This document shows, one piece after another, positions 27,273 through 33,482 of a DNA stretch of 64,000 nucleotides. The stretch spans positions 2,232,001-2,296,000 of the forward strand of contig NZ_JAPELY010000001.1 of the NCBI RefSeq assembly GCF_026343295.1, written 5' to 3'. The translations under genes and the position numbers were made by a program. Within the stretch, counting starts at the first letter, position 1. Every line of letters starts with the position of its first letter. The notes under the pieces were generated by a model. That model was given only the letters and a program-made list of their open reading frames with translations. It did not search any database and was not told the DNA's origin. Source of the DNA: Streptomyces sp. NBC_00083 (GTDB lineage: Bacteria; Actinomycetota; Actinomycetes; Streptomycetales; Streptomycetaceae).

Positions 27273-28742
27273 GTGTTGGATCACGGCGCAGCGCCACCCT
27301 CGACCGATGCACCCGATGCCGGGGGCCCGCGCCCCGGTCGCGGTCTGATGCGGCGCAAGCCGGTGGAGACGCTGGTCGCGGAGGGTGGCCAGGGCGAGGG
27401 CGGCTCGTTGAAGCGCTCGCTCGGCATGTGGCAGCTGACCATGATCAGCATCGGTGCGACGCTCGGCACCGGCATCTTCGTGGTGCTCGGGGAGGCCGTC
27501 CCCAAGGCCGGACCCGCCGTCACGATCTCGTTCGTGCTCGCCGGCGTCACCGCGCTCTTCTCGGCCCTGTCCTACGCCGAGCTCGCGGGCTCCATCCCCG
27601 TCGCGGGCTCCTCGTACTCGTACGCATACGCAACGCTCGGCGAACTCATCGCCTGGATCTGCGGCTGGTGCCTGATCCTGGAGTACGGCGTCTCGGTGGC
27701 GGCGGTCGCCGTCGGCTGGGGGCAGTACCTGAACGAGTTCCTCGACGGCACGATCGGTGTCACCATCCCCGACGCGCTGTCCGCGCCGCCCGGCGACGGC
27801 GGGATATTCAACCTGCCCGCCCTGATCGTCGTGGTCCTCGCCATGGGCCTGCTCCTGGGCGGCGCCCGCGAGTCCGCCCGGATCAACACGATCATGGTCG
27901 GTGTGAAGATCGCCGCGCTCGTGCTGTTCTGCGTGATCGGCTTCATGGGCTTCAAGTCGGGCAACTACCACGACTTCATGCCGCTCGGCACGGCCGGCGT
28001 CAGCGGCGCCGCCTCGACGCTCTTCTTCTCGTACATCGGCTTCGACGCGGCCTCCACGGCCGGCGAGGAGGCGAAGAACCCCAAGAAGGACCTGCCGCGC
28101 GCGATCATGCTGTCGCTCGTCATCGTCACCGCGCTGTACGTGCTCGTCGCGTTCGTTGCCGTCGGCGCGCGCCCCTGGAAGCAGTTCGAGGGCTCCGAGG
28201 CGGCGCTCGCCGGGATCATGAAGGACGTCACCGGCCACTCCTTCTGGGCCACGCTGCTCGCGGCCTGCGCGGTGATCGCCATCGCGAGCGTCGTCCTGAC
28301 CGTGCTGTACGGCCAGACCCGCATCCTGTTCGCGATGTCCCGCGACGGCCTCGTCCCCAAGGTCTTCGCCAAGGTCAGCCCGCGCAGCGGGACCCCGGTC
28401 GCCAACACCGTCGCCGTGTCGCTGTTCTGCGGTGTGCTCGCCGCCGCGGTGCCGCTCGGCAACCTCGCGGACGCCACCAGCATCGGCACGCTCTTCGCCT
28501 TCGCGCTGGTCAATGTCGCCGTCGTCATCCTGCGCAAGACGCGCCCGGACATGCCGCGCACCTTCCGGGTGCCGCTCGGTTGGGTCGTGCCCATCCTCGG
28601 CTTCCTCAGCTGCGGCTACCTCATGTGGAACCTGTCCGGAATCACATGGGAGTACTTCGGATACTGGATGGCCGCCGGTCTCGTGATCTACTTCGCTTAC
28701 GGCTACCGCCGTTCCAGGCTGGCCACCGCCTCACAGAAGTGA
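27273..28742 (+). CDS. APC-family amino acid permease
   Basis: 489 residues with about 12 membrane segments, cationic amino-acid transporter-like. The GTG at 27273 follows AAGGAG by 8 bases. The family hallmarks are visible: MISIGATLGTGIFVVLG in helix 1, SYAELAGSIPVAGSSYSYAYATLGE, and FFSYIGFDAASTAGEEAKNPKKDLPRAI before helix 7. It probably imports an amino acid by proton symport. Its neighbours (Lrp regulator 10 bases downstream and a lysine monooxygenase-like pair beyond a repeat array) suggest lysine or another basic amino acid as substrate; that is inference. Confidence 0.92.
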   Translation: MLDHGAAPPSTDAPDAGGPRPGRGLMRRKPVETLVAEGGQGEGGSLKRSLGMWQLTMISIGATLGTGIFVVLGEAVPKAGPAVTISFVLAGVTALFSALSYAELAGSIPVAGSSYSYAYATLGELIAWICGWCLILEYGVSVAAVAVGWGQYLNEFLDGTIGVTIPDALSAPPGDGGIFNLPALIVVVLAMGLLLGGARESARINTIMVGVKIAALVLFCVIGFMGFKSGNYHDFMPLGTAGVSGAASTLFFSYIGFDAASTAGEEAKNPKKDLPRAIMLSLVIVTALYVLVAFVAVGARPWKQFEGSEAALAGIMKDVTGHSFWATLLAACAVIAIASVVLTVLYGQTRILFAMSRDGLVPKVFAKVSPRSGTPVANTVAVSLFCGVLAAAVPLGNLADATSIGTLFAFALVNVAVVILRKTRPDMPRTFRVPLGWVVPILGFLSCGYLMWNLSGITWEYFGYWMAAGLVIYFAYGYRRSRLATASQK

Positions 28743-28752
28743 TCCACCCGCA

Positions 28753-29208
28753 GTGCGACTCAATGACCTCGATGAACGCATCGTCCACGCGCTCGCCGAA
28801 GACGCCCGGCGCTCCTACGCCGACATCGGCTCCCTGATCGGTCTGTCCGCGCCCGCCGTCAAGCGGCGCGTCGACCGGCTGCGGGCCGAGGGTGCCATCA
28901 CCGGGTTCACGGTCCGGGTGGACCCGGCGGCGCTCGGCTGGGAGACCGAGGGGTTCATCGAGATCTACTGCCGCCGCAACACCTCGCCCGATGCGATCAG
29001 GCGGGGGCTCGAGCGGTATCCCGAGGTCGCGTCGGCCTCCACCGTGACGGGGGAGGCGGACGCGATCGTGCAGGTCTTCGCCTCCGATATGCGGCACTTC
29101 GAGCGGGTGCTCGAGCGGATCGCGGGGGAGCCGTACGTGGAACGGACGAAGTCCGTGCTGGTCCTGTCCCCGCTGCTCCGCCGCTACACCTCAGGCAGCC
29201 CAGCCTGA
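28753..29208 (+). CDS. Lrp/AsnC-family transcriptional regulator
   Basis: 151 residues from a GTG. N-terminal winged HTH (LDERIVHALAEDARRSYADIGSLIGLSAPAVKRRVDRLR, residues ~5-45), then the RAM ligand-binding/oligomerisation domain. These proteins bind amino acids and wrap DNA at helically phased sites. It sits 10 bases behind the permease and so is almost certainly cotranscribed with it. The phased GCGCAA motifs upstream of the permease and of the davA-like gene are its candidate targets. Confidence 0.92.
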   Translation: MRLNDLDERIVHALAEDARRSYADIGSLIGLSAPAVKRRVDRLRAEGAITGFTVRVDPAALGWETEGFIEIYCRRNTSPDAIRRGLERYPEVASASTVTGEADAIVQVFASDMRHFERVLERIAGEPYVERTKSVLVLSPLLRRYTSGSPA

Positions 29209-29211
29209 CCC

Positions 29212-29930
29212 CCGGGCTCCGCCCCGGACCCCGTGTCGCGCCTTGAGGGCACTCGTCCTCAATCGCCGGACGGGCTGGGGACGTGCATGCTGCCCGGCGC
29301 CAGTGCCGCCAGGGGCGCGGGGAACTGCGCGGGACGCGGGCACGGTCCGCAGCTGGAGGGCGGGGTTGCCTGGGGCTCTGCCCCAGACCCCGTATCGCGC
29401 CTGAACGGCGCTCGTCCTCAATCGCCGGACGGGCTGGGGATGCCGAGACTGGGCACCCTGCCAAGGCCGACCCACCCACGGGCGCGGGGAACTGCGCGAG
29501 ACGCGGGCACGGTCGCAGCTGGAGGGCGGGGTTGCCTGGGGCTCTGCCCCAGACCCCGGTTCGCGCCTGAACGGCGCTCGTCCTCAAACGCCGGACGGGC
29601 TGGGGTGGCCTGTACTGGGCACGCTGCCAAGGCCCACCCACCTGGGGGCGCGGGGAACTGCGCGAGACGCGGGCACGGTCCGCACCCGAGGGCGGGGTTG
29701 CCTGGGGCTCCGCCCCAGACCCCGGTTCGCGCCTGAACGGCGCTCGTCCTCAATCGCCGGACGGGCTGGGGTGGCCTGCATGGGCCGGGGTCGAGCAGCC
29801 GGACACCTGGATTGAGCATGCCGCCAAGGCCCACCCACCCAGGGGCGCGGGGAACTGCGCGGGACGCGGGCACGGTCCGCACCCGAAGGTGGGGTTTCAG
29901 GGGCGCGGGGAACTGCGCGGGTGCGGGTCG
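29212..29930 (+). repeat. Array of ~166-bp imperfect tandem repeats, locus 1
   Basis: The core GCGCGGGGAACTGCGCG occurs at 29315, 29482, 29648, 29845 and 29903, with spacings 167, 166, 197 and 58. Full units begin with a short hairpin (TGGGGCTCTGCCCCA at 29371 and 29537, variants near 29212 and 29703). They continue through a CTCGTCCTCAAwCGCCGGACG block, then the core and a GACGCGGGCACGGTCCGCA block, and end GCGGGGTTGCC. The last unit carries an extra ~30 bases, and a short partial unit follows. The same family occurs inverted at 60560-60960. Confidence 0.9.
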
Positions 29931-29975
29931 GCGCAATGAATCGCTGCTCTGGGGCGATCATGCGCAACGAATCGC
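29931..29975 (+). promoter_or_regulatory. Direct repeat GCGCAAyGAATCGC upstream of the davA-like gene
   Basis: Two 14-base copies differing at one position (29931-29944 and 29962-29975), 31 bases apart, about three helical turns. GCGCAATGATC upstream of the permease (27060-27070) is closely related. Likely operator shared by the two transcription units; the cognate regulator is inferred to be the Lrp protein. Confidence 0.45.
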
Positions 29976-30068
29976 GCGCCGACACGCAACGCTCCCGCCT
30001 TGTCCCCCGCGATCAGCGGAACGTACCGTCTAATGACCCCACCCCGCACCCCCCGCCGAGGACCGCCC

Positions 30069-30866
30069 ATGCCCGCGTTGCGCACCGCCCTGCTCCAGAG
30101 CTCCGGCAGTCTCTCGGACGTCGCCGCGAACCTGACGGTCCTGGACGACGCGGCCGGGCGGGCCGCCGCGACCGGCGCCGGGCTGATCGTCTGCCCCGAG
30201 CTGTTCCTCACCGGGTACGCCATCGGCGACGACATCGCGAAGCTCGCCGAGCCCGCCGACGGACCCTCCGCCGAGGCGATCGCCGCGATCGCCGTACGGC
30301 ACGGCCTGGCCGTCGTCTACGGCTACCCCGAGCGCGACGGCGACACCGTCTACAACGCCGCCCAGCTCATCGGCCCCGACGGCACCCGCCTCGCGAACTA
30401 CCGCAAGACCCACCTCTTCGGCGACTTCGAGCAGGCGGCCTTCACCCCGGGCGAGCGATGCGTCGTCCAGGCCGAGCTGAACGGCCTCCGCATCGGCATG
30501 ATGATCTGCTACGACGTGGAGTTCCCCGAGAACGTACGGGCCCACGCGCTGGCCGGCACCGACCTCCTCCTCGTGCCCACGGCCCAGATGCACCCCTTCC
30601 AGTTCGTCGCCGAGTCCCTCGTGCCGGTCCGCGCCTTCGAGAACCAGCTGTACGTCGCGTACGTCAACCGCACCGGCCCCGAGGGCGCCTTCGAATTCGT
30701 CGGCCTGAGCTGCCTGGCCGGCCCCGACGGCGCCGCCCGCGCCCGCGCCGGGCGCGGTACCGAGCTGGTCGTCGGCGACGTCGACCCCGCGTTCCTGGCC
30801 GCCTCGCGCGCGAACAACCCGTATCTGCGCGACCGCCGCCCCGGCCTCTACGCCTCCCTGGTCTGA
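30069..30866 (+). CDS. davA: Nitrilase-superfamily amidase, DavA-like (5-aminovaleramidase)
   Basis: 265 residues from the ATG at 30069, with GAGGA upstream. Carbon-nitrogen hydrolase with the triad Glu44 (VCPELFLTGY), Lys113 (NYRKTHLFG) and Cys147 (MMICYDVEFPEN). Length and these segments match my recollection of Pseudomonas DavA closely, including LAEPADGPSA and YGYPERDGDTVYN. Predicted reaction: 5-aminovaleramide to 5-aminovalerate and ammonia, completing what the monooxygenase downstream begins. No alignment was run. If the partner acts on Trp or Phe, the substrate would be the corresponding aryl-acetamide. Confidence 0.75.
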   Translation: MPALRTALLQSSGSLSDVAANLTVLDDAAGRAAATGAGLIVCPELFLTGYAIGDDIAKLAEPADGPSAEAIAAIAVRHGLAVVYGYPERDGDTVYNAAQLIGPDGTRLANYRKTHLFGDFEQAAFTPGERCVVQAELNGLRIGMMICYDVEFPENVRAHALAGTDLLLVPTAQMHPFQFVAESLVPVRAFENQLYVAYVNRTGPEGAFEFVGLSCLAGPDGAARARAGRGTELVVGDVDPAFLAASRANNPYLRDRRPGLYASLV

Positions 30867-30935
30867 GCCCCGGGCCGCCCGGCCCCGCCGCCCCCACCCC
30901 CTCAACTTCCGTACTGTGCAAGGAGTCCGTACCCC

Positions 30936-32627
30936 ATGACGTCCACGGTGCCCACCGCCGTCCAGCACATCGACGAGCAGCCGCCCGTCACGATGTTCGG
31001 GCCGGACTTCCCCTACGCGTACGACGACTTCCTCGCGCACCCGGCCGGGCTCGGCCAGATACCCGCGACCGAGCACGGCGCGGAGGTCGCGGTCATCGGC
31101 GGCGGCCTCTCCGGCATCGTCGCCGCGTACGAGCTGATGAAGATGGGCCTCAAGCCCGTCGTGTACGAGGCCGACCAGATCGGCGGCCGGCTGCGCACCG
31201 TCGGCTTCCCCGGCTGCGACCCCGAGCTCAGCGCCGAGATGGGCGCCATGCGGTTCCCCCCGTGCTCCACCGCGCTCCAGCACTACATCGACCTGGTGGG
31301 CCTGGAGACCAAGCCGTTCCCCAACCCGCTCGCCCCGGACACCCCCTCCACGGTGGTCGACCTCAAGGGCGAGTCCCACTACGCGACCTCCGTCGACGAG
31401 CTGCCGGCCGTGTACCGCGAGGTCATGGACGCGTGGAACGCCTGCCTCGAAGAGGGCGCCGACTTCTCCGACATGAACCAGGCCATCCGGGAGCGCGACA
31501 CCCCGCGCATCCGTGAGATCTGGGCCAAGCTCGTCGAGAAGTTCGACAACCAGACCTTCTACGGCTTCCTCTGCGACTCGGAGGCCTTCAAGTCCTTCCG
31601 GCACCGCGAGATCTTCGGCCAGGTCGGCTTCGGCACCGGCGGCTGGGACACCGACTTCCCCAACTCCATCCTGGAGATCCTGCGCGTCGTCTACACCGAG
31701 GCCGACGACCACCACCGCGGCATCGTCGGCGGCTCCCAGCAGCTGCCCGTGCGGCTGTGGGAGCGGGAGCCCGCGAAGCTCGTGCACTGGGCGCCCGGGA
31801 CCTCGCTCGCCTCGCTCCACGAGGGCGCGCCGAAGCCGGCCGTGACCCGGCTGCACCGCACCGCGGGCAACCGGATCACCGTGACGGACGCCGACGGCGA
31901 CATCCGCACCTTCCGCGCGGCGATCTTCACCGCGCAGTCCTGGATGCTGCTCTCCAAGATCGCCTGTGACGACTCGCTCTTCCCGATCGACCACTGGACG
32001 GCGATCGAGCGCACCCACTACATGGAGTCCTCGAAGCTGTTCGTCCCCGTCGACCGGCCGTTCTGGCTGGACAAGGATGAGGAGACCGGCCGTGACGTCA
32101 TGTCGATGACGCTCACCGACCGCATGACGCGCGGCACCTACCTGCTCGACAACGGCCCGGACAAGCCCGCCGTCATCTGCCTCTCCTACACCTGGTGCGA
32201 CGACAGCCTCAAGTGGCTGCCGCTGTCGGCGAGCGAGCGCATGGAGGTCATGCTCAAGTCGCTCGGCGAGATCTACCCGAAGGTCGACATCCGCCGGCAC
32301 ATCATCGGCAACCCGGTCACGGTGTCCTGGGAGAACGAGCCGTACTTCATGGGCGCGTTCAAGGCGAACCTGCCCGGCCACTACCGCTACCAGCGCCGCC
32401 TGTTCACGCATTTCATGCAGGACGCCCTGCCGGAGGACAAGCGGGGCATCTTCCTCGCGGGCGACGACATCTCCTGGACGGCCGGATGGGCCGAGGGCGC
32501 CGTGCAGACCGCGCTCAACGCGGTGTGGGGCGTCATGCACCACTTCGGCGGGACGACCGACGCGGCCAACCCCGGTCCGGGCGACCTGTACGACTCGATC
32601 GCTCCGGTGGAGCTCCCCGAGGACTGA
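30936..32627 (+). CDS. davB: Flavin amino-acid monooxygenase, L-lysine 2-monooxygenase (DavB)-like
   Basis: 563 residues from the ATG at 30936 (AAGGAG upstream), 69 bases after the amidase. FAD-binding GGGLSG is at residues 55-60, then AYELMKMGLKPVVYEA and the RMGG-type loop AEMGAMRFPP. RGTYLLDNGPDKPAVICLSYTWCDD and AGWAEGAVQTALNAVWG are hallmarks of the Trp/Lys/Phe 2-monooxygenase group. The N-terminus (TMFGPDFPYAYDDFLAHP) and C-terminus agree best with DavB as I remember it. Predicted reaction: L-lysine + O2 to 5-aminovaleramide + CO2 + H2O. Substrate preference is inferred. Confidence 0.78.
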   Translation: MTSTVPTAVQHIDEQPPVTMFGPDFPYAYDDFLAHPAGLGQIPATEHGAEVAVIGGGLSGIVAAYELMKMGLKPVVYEADQIGGRLRTVGFPGCDPELSAEMGAMRFPPCSTALQHYIDLVGLETKPFPNPLAPDTPSTVVDLKGESHYATSVDELPAVYREVMDAWNACLEEGADFSDMNQAIRERDTPRIREIWAKLVEKFDNQTFYGFLCDSEAFKSFRHREIFGQVGFGTGGWDTDFPNSILEILRVVYTEADDHHRGIVGGSQQLPVRLWEREPAKLVHWAPGTSLASLHEGAPKPAVTRLHRTAGNRITVTDADGDIRTFRAAIFTAQSWMLLSKIACDDSLFPIDHWTAIERTHYMESSKLFVPVDRPFWLDKDEETGRDVMSMTLTDRMTRGTYLLDNGPDKPAVICLSYTWCDDSLKWLPLSASERMEVMLKSLGEIYPKVDIRRHIIGNPVTVSWENEPYFMGAFKANLPGHYRYQRRLFTHFMQDALPEDKRGIFLAGDDISWTAGWAEGAVQTALNAVWGVMHHFGGTTDAANPGPGDLYDSIAPVELPED

Positions 32628-32633
32628 GGACGG

Positions 32634-33359
32634 TCAGCGCGCGGCGGGCAGCGGGGTCAGCAGGCACCGGGTCACCAGGCCCACCCCCGCGTCGAGCCGC
32701 TCCGTGAACTCCTCGGCCAGGGAGGGGAGTTCACGCAGCTGCCACAGGACCTTCGCCGCCGACCACGAGGCGTCCCGTGCCCGGTCGAGGCTCCAGGACG
32801 CCAGCAGATGCGTCATGGGGTCGGCCACCTGGAACAGGTCGGGACCGGGCATGAGCTCCTCCCGGATCCGCTCTTCGAGGAGCGTCAGGGCGTCGCCCAC
32901 GCGGTCGAAGTCCCGCTCCAGGGAGGCGGGTTCGCAGTCGAGCGCCCGGCAGCTGTCGACCAGGGCCAGCGTCAGGTCGTGCCCGATGTGCGCGTTGATC
33001 CCGGCGAGCGCGAACTGGAGCGGACGTACGCCGGGATGGCGGCGGTACTGAAAGAGGGGCCGCCAGCAGTCCGGCGGGCGCCGGCCGGCGCCCGCCGCCT
33101 CCACGGCCGCGAGATAGCGCCCGGCGAACAGGGCGTCCAGGGTGGCCGCCGCGTGCGGATCGGTGAAGCCGCCGTGCGCGATGAGCCGGGAGATCTCCTC
33201 CGTCACCGTCAGATAGACGCGGTTGAAGACCGCGATGCCGTCCCGGGCCGGCAGGTCCGCCCGCAGCGCCCGCATCCGCCGCACCACGGGATCGAGCGGC
33301 CCCCCGAACCGGCGGGCGTGCTCCACGGGTGCGGCGGGCGTCCATTCGGTCTGCGTCAT
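32634..33359 (-). CDS. DUF5995-family protein
   Basis: 241 residues from the ATG at 33359 (residues TQTEWTPAAP follow); 12 further upstream codons are open but unconserved. Mostly helical and soluble, without signal peptide. Features include AVFNRVYLTVTEEISRLI, FADPHAAATLDALFAGRYL-like and FALAGINAHIGHDLTLAL, where the NxHIxHDL segment could bind metal or act catalytically. I recognise this as the DUF5995 group of uncharacterised actinobacterial proteins. Its stop lies 6 bases from the convergent davB-like stop. Confidence 0.8.
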   Translation of the reverse strand: MTQTEWTPAAPVEHARRFGGPLDPVVRRMRALRADLPARDGIAVFNRVYLTVTEEISRLIAHGGFTDPHAAATLDALFAGRYLAAVEAAGAGRRPPDCWRPLFQYRRHPGVRPLQFALAGINAHIGHDLTLALVDSCRALDCEPASLERDFDRVGDALTLLEERIREELMPGPDLFQVADPMTHLLASWSLDRARDASWSAAKVLWQLRELPSLAEEFTERLDAGVGLVTRCLLTPLPAAR

Positions 33360-33482
33360 GGGGGCAGCGTCCCAGCCCGTCGCCGCGCCGAGCACCGCCG
33401 GAAGGGGGCATGACCGGATCGGATGAACGGACCGGTGTGGAGGGCGCCGCGGCCGCGCCGGGCGGCTATGTGCGCACGCCGC

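Follow-up and report, generated by a model that had tools for sequence, protein, structure and literature searches.

Which amino acid is broken down by the flavoprotein and amidase encoded side by side in the stretch of Streptomyces sp. NBC_00083 DNA analysed here (64,000 nucleotides; hereafter the window), and how unusual is their pathway for the genus? An initial annotation had likened the pair to DavA and DavB of Pseudomonas, which turn lysine into 5-aminovalerate, and had pointed to a linked permease and an Lrp regulator. From protein family membership, the residues of the pocket, gene order and co-occurrence, and the conservation of the genes, we retain the enzyme classes and revise the substrate: the genes probably constitute a core Streptomyces module that degrades a basic amino acid oxidatively, for which L-arginine is the best candidate.

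The open reading frames for the permease, the Lrp/AsnC protein, the CN hydrolase and the flavoprotein all lie on the plus strand (Table 1), with a third-position GC content of 0.91-0.98 in each, a coding-type signal. The permease frame is open from a GTG at 27273 (27273-28742), although its start is probably the one at 27348, because the conserved sequence begins there. The Lrp/AsnC gene starts 10 bp past the permease stop, and the amidase and oxygenase genes are 69 bp apart. A tandem repeat lies in the gap that separates the Lrp and amidase genes, so that transcription as a single unit is uncertain; repeats are present in some close relatives (L054) and absent in others (L051, L053). Order and strand of the four genes are kept in most of the named Streptomyces loci examined. 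The gene for the DUF5995 protein likewise stays 3' of the oxygenase gene in most Streptomyces loci, possibly linked by synteny only.

Table 1. Features of the putative basic amino acid degradation module and its surroundings (window coordinates).
Feature	Coordinates	Strand	Remarks
APC/CAT-type amino-acid permease	27348..28742	+	464 aa; TIGR00909, AA_permease_C
Lrp/AsnC-family regulator	28753..29208	+	151 aa; PF13404 + PF01037
166-bp tandem repeat, 3.5 copies	29214..29785	.	TRF score 794; between Lrp gene and amidase gene
CN-hydrolase amidase, DavA-like, predicted	30069..30866	+	265 aa; PF00795, Glu44-Lys113-Cys147
FAD-dependent basic L-amino acid 2-monooxygenase, predicted	30936..32627	+	563 aa; PF01593, 3WE0 match
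DUF5995 protein	32634-33395	-	directly downstream of oxygenase

The flavoprotein matches PF01593 (175 bits), and its residues 13-560 align with 3WE0, the L-amino acid oxidase/monooxygenase of Pseudomonas sp. AIU 813 (PDB 3WE0/5YB6-8), at 798 bits (E = 5.5e-239) and 60% full-length identity, with the FAD domain and the aromatic cage common to both. In the Pseudomonas enzyme, lysine, ornithine and arginine are anchored by their side-chain cation to Asp238, and much of the remaining pocket consists of Arg102, Tyr416, Trp418, Phe473 and Trp516 (PMC5832979). In 3WE0 numbering, used for all oxygenase positions in this text, the window protein keeps Arg102, Trp235, Asp238, Tyr416, Trp418, Lys424, Phe473 and Trp516. 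Judged by this family match and the preserved pocket, it is a predicted basic-L-amino-acid 2-monooxygenase, and the DavA/DavB-like pairing of a flavin 2-monooxygenase with a CN-hydrolase amidase, in the order first noticed, is upheld. The main alternative put forward initially had been a tryptophan or phenylalanine 2-monooxygenase acting with an arylacetamide (auxin-like) amidase, with arginine named only among substrates to assay. Such enzymes belong to the same MAO superfamily, and one exchange of the window protein, Ala515 to Gly, is also seen in tryptophan and phenylalanine enzymes. However, they are not its closest relatives: the next family, that of tryptophan 2-monooxygenase (TMO), scores 207 bits and has Val and Phe in place of Asp238 and Trp235, neither a non-acidic residue 238 nor Phe235 was found in the window oxygenase, and relatives of the module are linked to a guanidinobutyrase gene. 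On the scores and pocket residues, we therefore set tryptophan and phenylalanine aside as very improbable.

The choice among basic amino acids rests on finer differences. If the two proteins were a true DavB and DavA, that is, an L-lysine 2-monooxygenase and a 5-aminovaleramidase, they would lead from lysine through 5-aminovaleramide and 5-aminovalerate to glutarate. In favour of this route, the one close relative with a known structure is counted among the lysine 2-monooxygenases; it accepts lysine, ornithine and arginine with kcat/Km values within about eightfold and performs better on the first two than on arginine (PMC5832979), and its Asp238 and Trp235 recur in the window protein, as does its Trp516, which is Phe in the arginine monooxygenases of polyketide clusters. 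Against it stand six variable substrate-site positions at which the window protein departs from the proteobacterial enzymes (Cys254 to Ala, Gln258 to His, Pro514 to Ala, Ala515 to Gly, Glu140 to Lys and Gln349 to Ile), the last two falling at the second lysine-binding site and the first at the position that sets the monooxygenase/oxidase balance in the Pseudomonas enzyme. The latter and three alphaproteobacterial relatives have Gln258, Pro514 and Ala515 in common, and their residue 254 is bulkier (Cys, Leu or Phe); of the lysine-clade residues Gln258, Pro514, Ala515, Glu140 and Gln349, none was found in the window oxygenase, which at all six positions matches arginine-linked actinobacterial enzymes instead. 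This signature is common to nearly all Streptomyces orthologues, and over 16 substrate-site residues the window protein is identical to an oxygenase of Tsukamurella. We read the signature as an association with arginine, no single residue being proven to separate arginine from lysine enzymes. In a tree of the oxygenases, the Streptomyces sequences adjoin those from f15, a different family of actinobacteria. Members linked to a guanidinobutyrase fall outside these, and the lysine enzymes of proteobacteria occupy a branch of their own beside Arthrobacter and G224; as the root of the tree is unsure and the outgroup branch very long, we claim no rooted origin of the lysine clade.

The association with arginine is reinforced by a guanidinobutyrase, an enzyme that has no role in lysine breakdown. 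A plasmid of Tsukamurella tyrosinosolvens (NZ_LR134452.1) carries an operon of the order speB-permease-CN hydrolase-oxidoreductase, whose genes are homologous one by one to those of the genome studied here (64, 63, 57 and 66% identity, respectively); its guanidinobutyrase/agmatinase gene thus sits together with the module, whereas in Streptomyces it is unlinked. No Lrp homologue was found beside the Tsukamurella operon; in a different family of actinobacteria, the module has one next to it with 61-63% identity. In three further genomes (G158, G224 and G143), a guanidinobutyrase homologue is located beside the oxygenase gene or close to it, the chance of this being about 6e-5. Among the 223 non-Streptomyces genomes of the class, a guanidinobutyrase homologue occurs in 13 of the 15 with the oxygenase compared with 36 of the 208 without it (p = 5e-8; raw counts, uncorrected for kinship); counted by genus, Streptomyces included, the figures are 7/9 and 24/86 (p = 0.005, likewise uncorrected). 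The possibility that this reflects merely a rich catabolic repertoire was rejected, since the histidine ammonia-lyase gene hutH, taken as a control in the same non-Streptomyces genomes, gave a much weaker association (13/15 versus 127/208, p = 0.055, again from raw counts). Within Streptomyces, where the counts are likewise uncorrected for kinship, every oxygenase-bearing genome tested (31 of 31) also encodes the guanidinobutyrase, and three complete genomes that lack the oxygenase (G037, G120 and G327) lack the guanidinobutyrase and the permease as well; one of them, G327, nevertheless keeps hutH, which again counts against the rich-repertoire reading. The association holds for the actinobacterial family at large and, in Streptomyces, by co-occurrence, not by linkage in the window. 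The joint loss of oxygenase and guanidinobutyrase suggests a single dominant guanidino substrate, which speaks against a broad monooxygenase serving general nitrogen salvage with arginine, lysine and ornithine alike. Breadth of this kind would suit the narrow spread of catalytic efficiencies in the Pseudomonas relative, and the Ala515 to Gly exchange could widen the pocket (PMC5832979).

Taking these lines of evidence together, we predict that the oxygenase is an arginine 2-monooxygenase, for which lysine and ornithine are possible further substrates, and we infer the products and regulation of the pathway. The permease would import arginine. The flavoprotein, its Asp238 contacting the positively charged side chain, would then catalyse an O2-dependent oxidative decarboxylation to 4-guanidinobutyramide, CO2 and water; the CN hydrolase would release ammonia to give 4-guanidinobutyrate, from which an unlinked, predicted guanidinobutyrase (GbuA; C3:768629-769594) would produce GABA and urea. 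The next step would fall to a GABA aminotransferase. The Lrp protein probably senses the amino acid. The permease scores 576 bits with TIGR00909, over the cut-off, 430 bits with the amino acid transporter 5OQT/6F34 and 220-235 bits with eukaryotic cationic amino-acid transporters, and is predicted to bring the substrate into the cell; its Pfam domains are PF13520 and PF13906, and those of the regulator PF13404 and PF01037. The linkage of permease and Lrp protein noted at the outset is confirmed. The amidase (PF00795, 178 bits; 150 bits with bacterial amidase structures) has the Glu-Lys-Cys triad at exactly the residues first named (E44, K113, C147) and is a predicted 4-guanidinobutyramide (or 5-aminovaleramide) amidohydrolase.

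The sole ureohydrolase of the genome is best matched by the P. aeruginosa guanidinobutyrase (287 bits, compared with 229 for agmatinase). NCBIfam names it agmatinase, and decarboxylase families able to make agmatine are present in the same genome, so it may still be an agmatinase. Its gene is followed by one for a TPP enzyme akin to 5-guanidino-2-oxopentanoate decarboxylase, with a PmfR/CdaR-like regulator on the opposite strand, and this region (C3:768629-769594 and downstream; L177 9630-12271) is possibly a second arginine-catabolic locus. A GABA aminotransferase is encoded in the genome, above its cut-off, and it could also take 5-aminovalerate, which would suit a lysine route, as would the pairing of amidase and oxygenase known from Dav operons. 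In contrast to the Pseudomonas DavBA pathway, however, davT and davD do not lie alongside the window genes, and the association is with a guanidinobutyrase instead.

The oxygenase is present in 116 of 118 good Streptomyces genomes at 78-93% identity and also in many named Streptomyces; among the best 80 loci the close relatives are all from this genus, as its name would lead one to expect. Because of this near-universal presence, the module is a core Streptomyces trait and not a rare acquisition. Seven Streptomyces genomes (L044-L050) hold a second oxygenase copy with 62-65% identity. Several of them are located within or next to what look like polyketide clusters primed by arginine, which comprise a CoA ligase, a VinK-like acyltransferase, a thioesterase and polyketide synthase modules, joined in L050 by a ureohydrolase. 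Clusters of this kind, marked by a CoA ligase, are where arginine monooxygenase is known to supply arginoketide synthesis with 4-guanidinobutyramide (PMC5082578, PMC4737276, PMC10322714). The second copies have Ala254 and Gly515, like the window protein, which favours arginine, and the arginoketide enzymes (azalomycin/desertomycin type; EC 1.13.12.1) also have Asp238 in common with it. They differ in Phe516 and in standing beside a CoA ligase and polyketide synthase genes, whereas the window copy belongs to the permease-Lrp-amidase module and coexists with them. The genome studied here also encodes a distant paralogue (39% identity; C5:765611-767329; L002, L008 9567-11351) next to a TPP-dependent enzyme and a Xaa-Pro dipeptidase-like amidohydrolase. 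Because its residues 238 and 473 are Phe and Ser, it is unlikely to be the actual arginine enzyme; the D238F mutant suggests, by analogy, that its substrates may be non-basic amino acids.

Both the core and the second copy occur in each of the seven polyketide-linked genomes, and the core copy may therefore do another job. In S. lividans equipped with the azalomycin cluster, azalomycin was formed only upon feeding of 4-guanidinobutyramide, and according to the authors this host is without an arginine monooxygenase (PMC5082578), a result that speaks for lysine and against arginine. If S. lividans has the core gene, as most of the genus does, the enzyme there is silent, does not make enough arginine product, loses that product to the amidase and guanidinobutyrase, or acts on something other than arginine. 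In view of this feeding result and the seven two-copy genomes, we keep lysine, as main or additional substrate in a promiscuous family, as an unlikely alternative and hold broad specificity to be rather improbable. The lysine assignment is nonetheless probably wrong, and arginine remains the substrate that we favour.

EC 1.13.12.1 has the arginine 2-monooxygenase of S. griseus as its type enzyme. The oxidative route from arginine to GABA was first described in this species, and its first enzyme was called biochemically uncharacterised in a 2007 paper (PMC2242806); together with the near-universal presence of the gene, this history speaks against the initial view that such a route would be unusual for Streptomyces. 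In the literature that we covered, which is incomplete, we found no assignment of the core Streptomyces oxygenase gene, and nothing useful on the presumed S. coelicolor locus tags. It is tempting to propose, though only tentatively, that the near-universal oxygenase-amidase pair could be the gene set of the S. griseus arginine-to-GABA route, and that the arginoketide-priming monooxygenases represent a specialised offshoot of this catabolic family of actinobacteria. If true, this would provide the genes for an arginine-breakdown pathway across most of a heavily used genus and correct a likely mis-annotation as lysine monooxygenase. Moreover, strain builders would gain a handle on 4-guanidinobutyrate, which serves antifungal arginoketides as starter unit.
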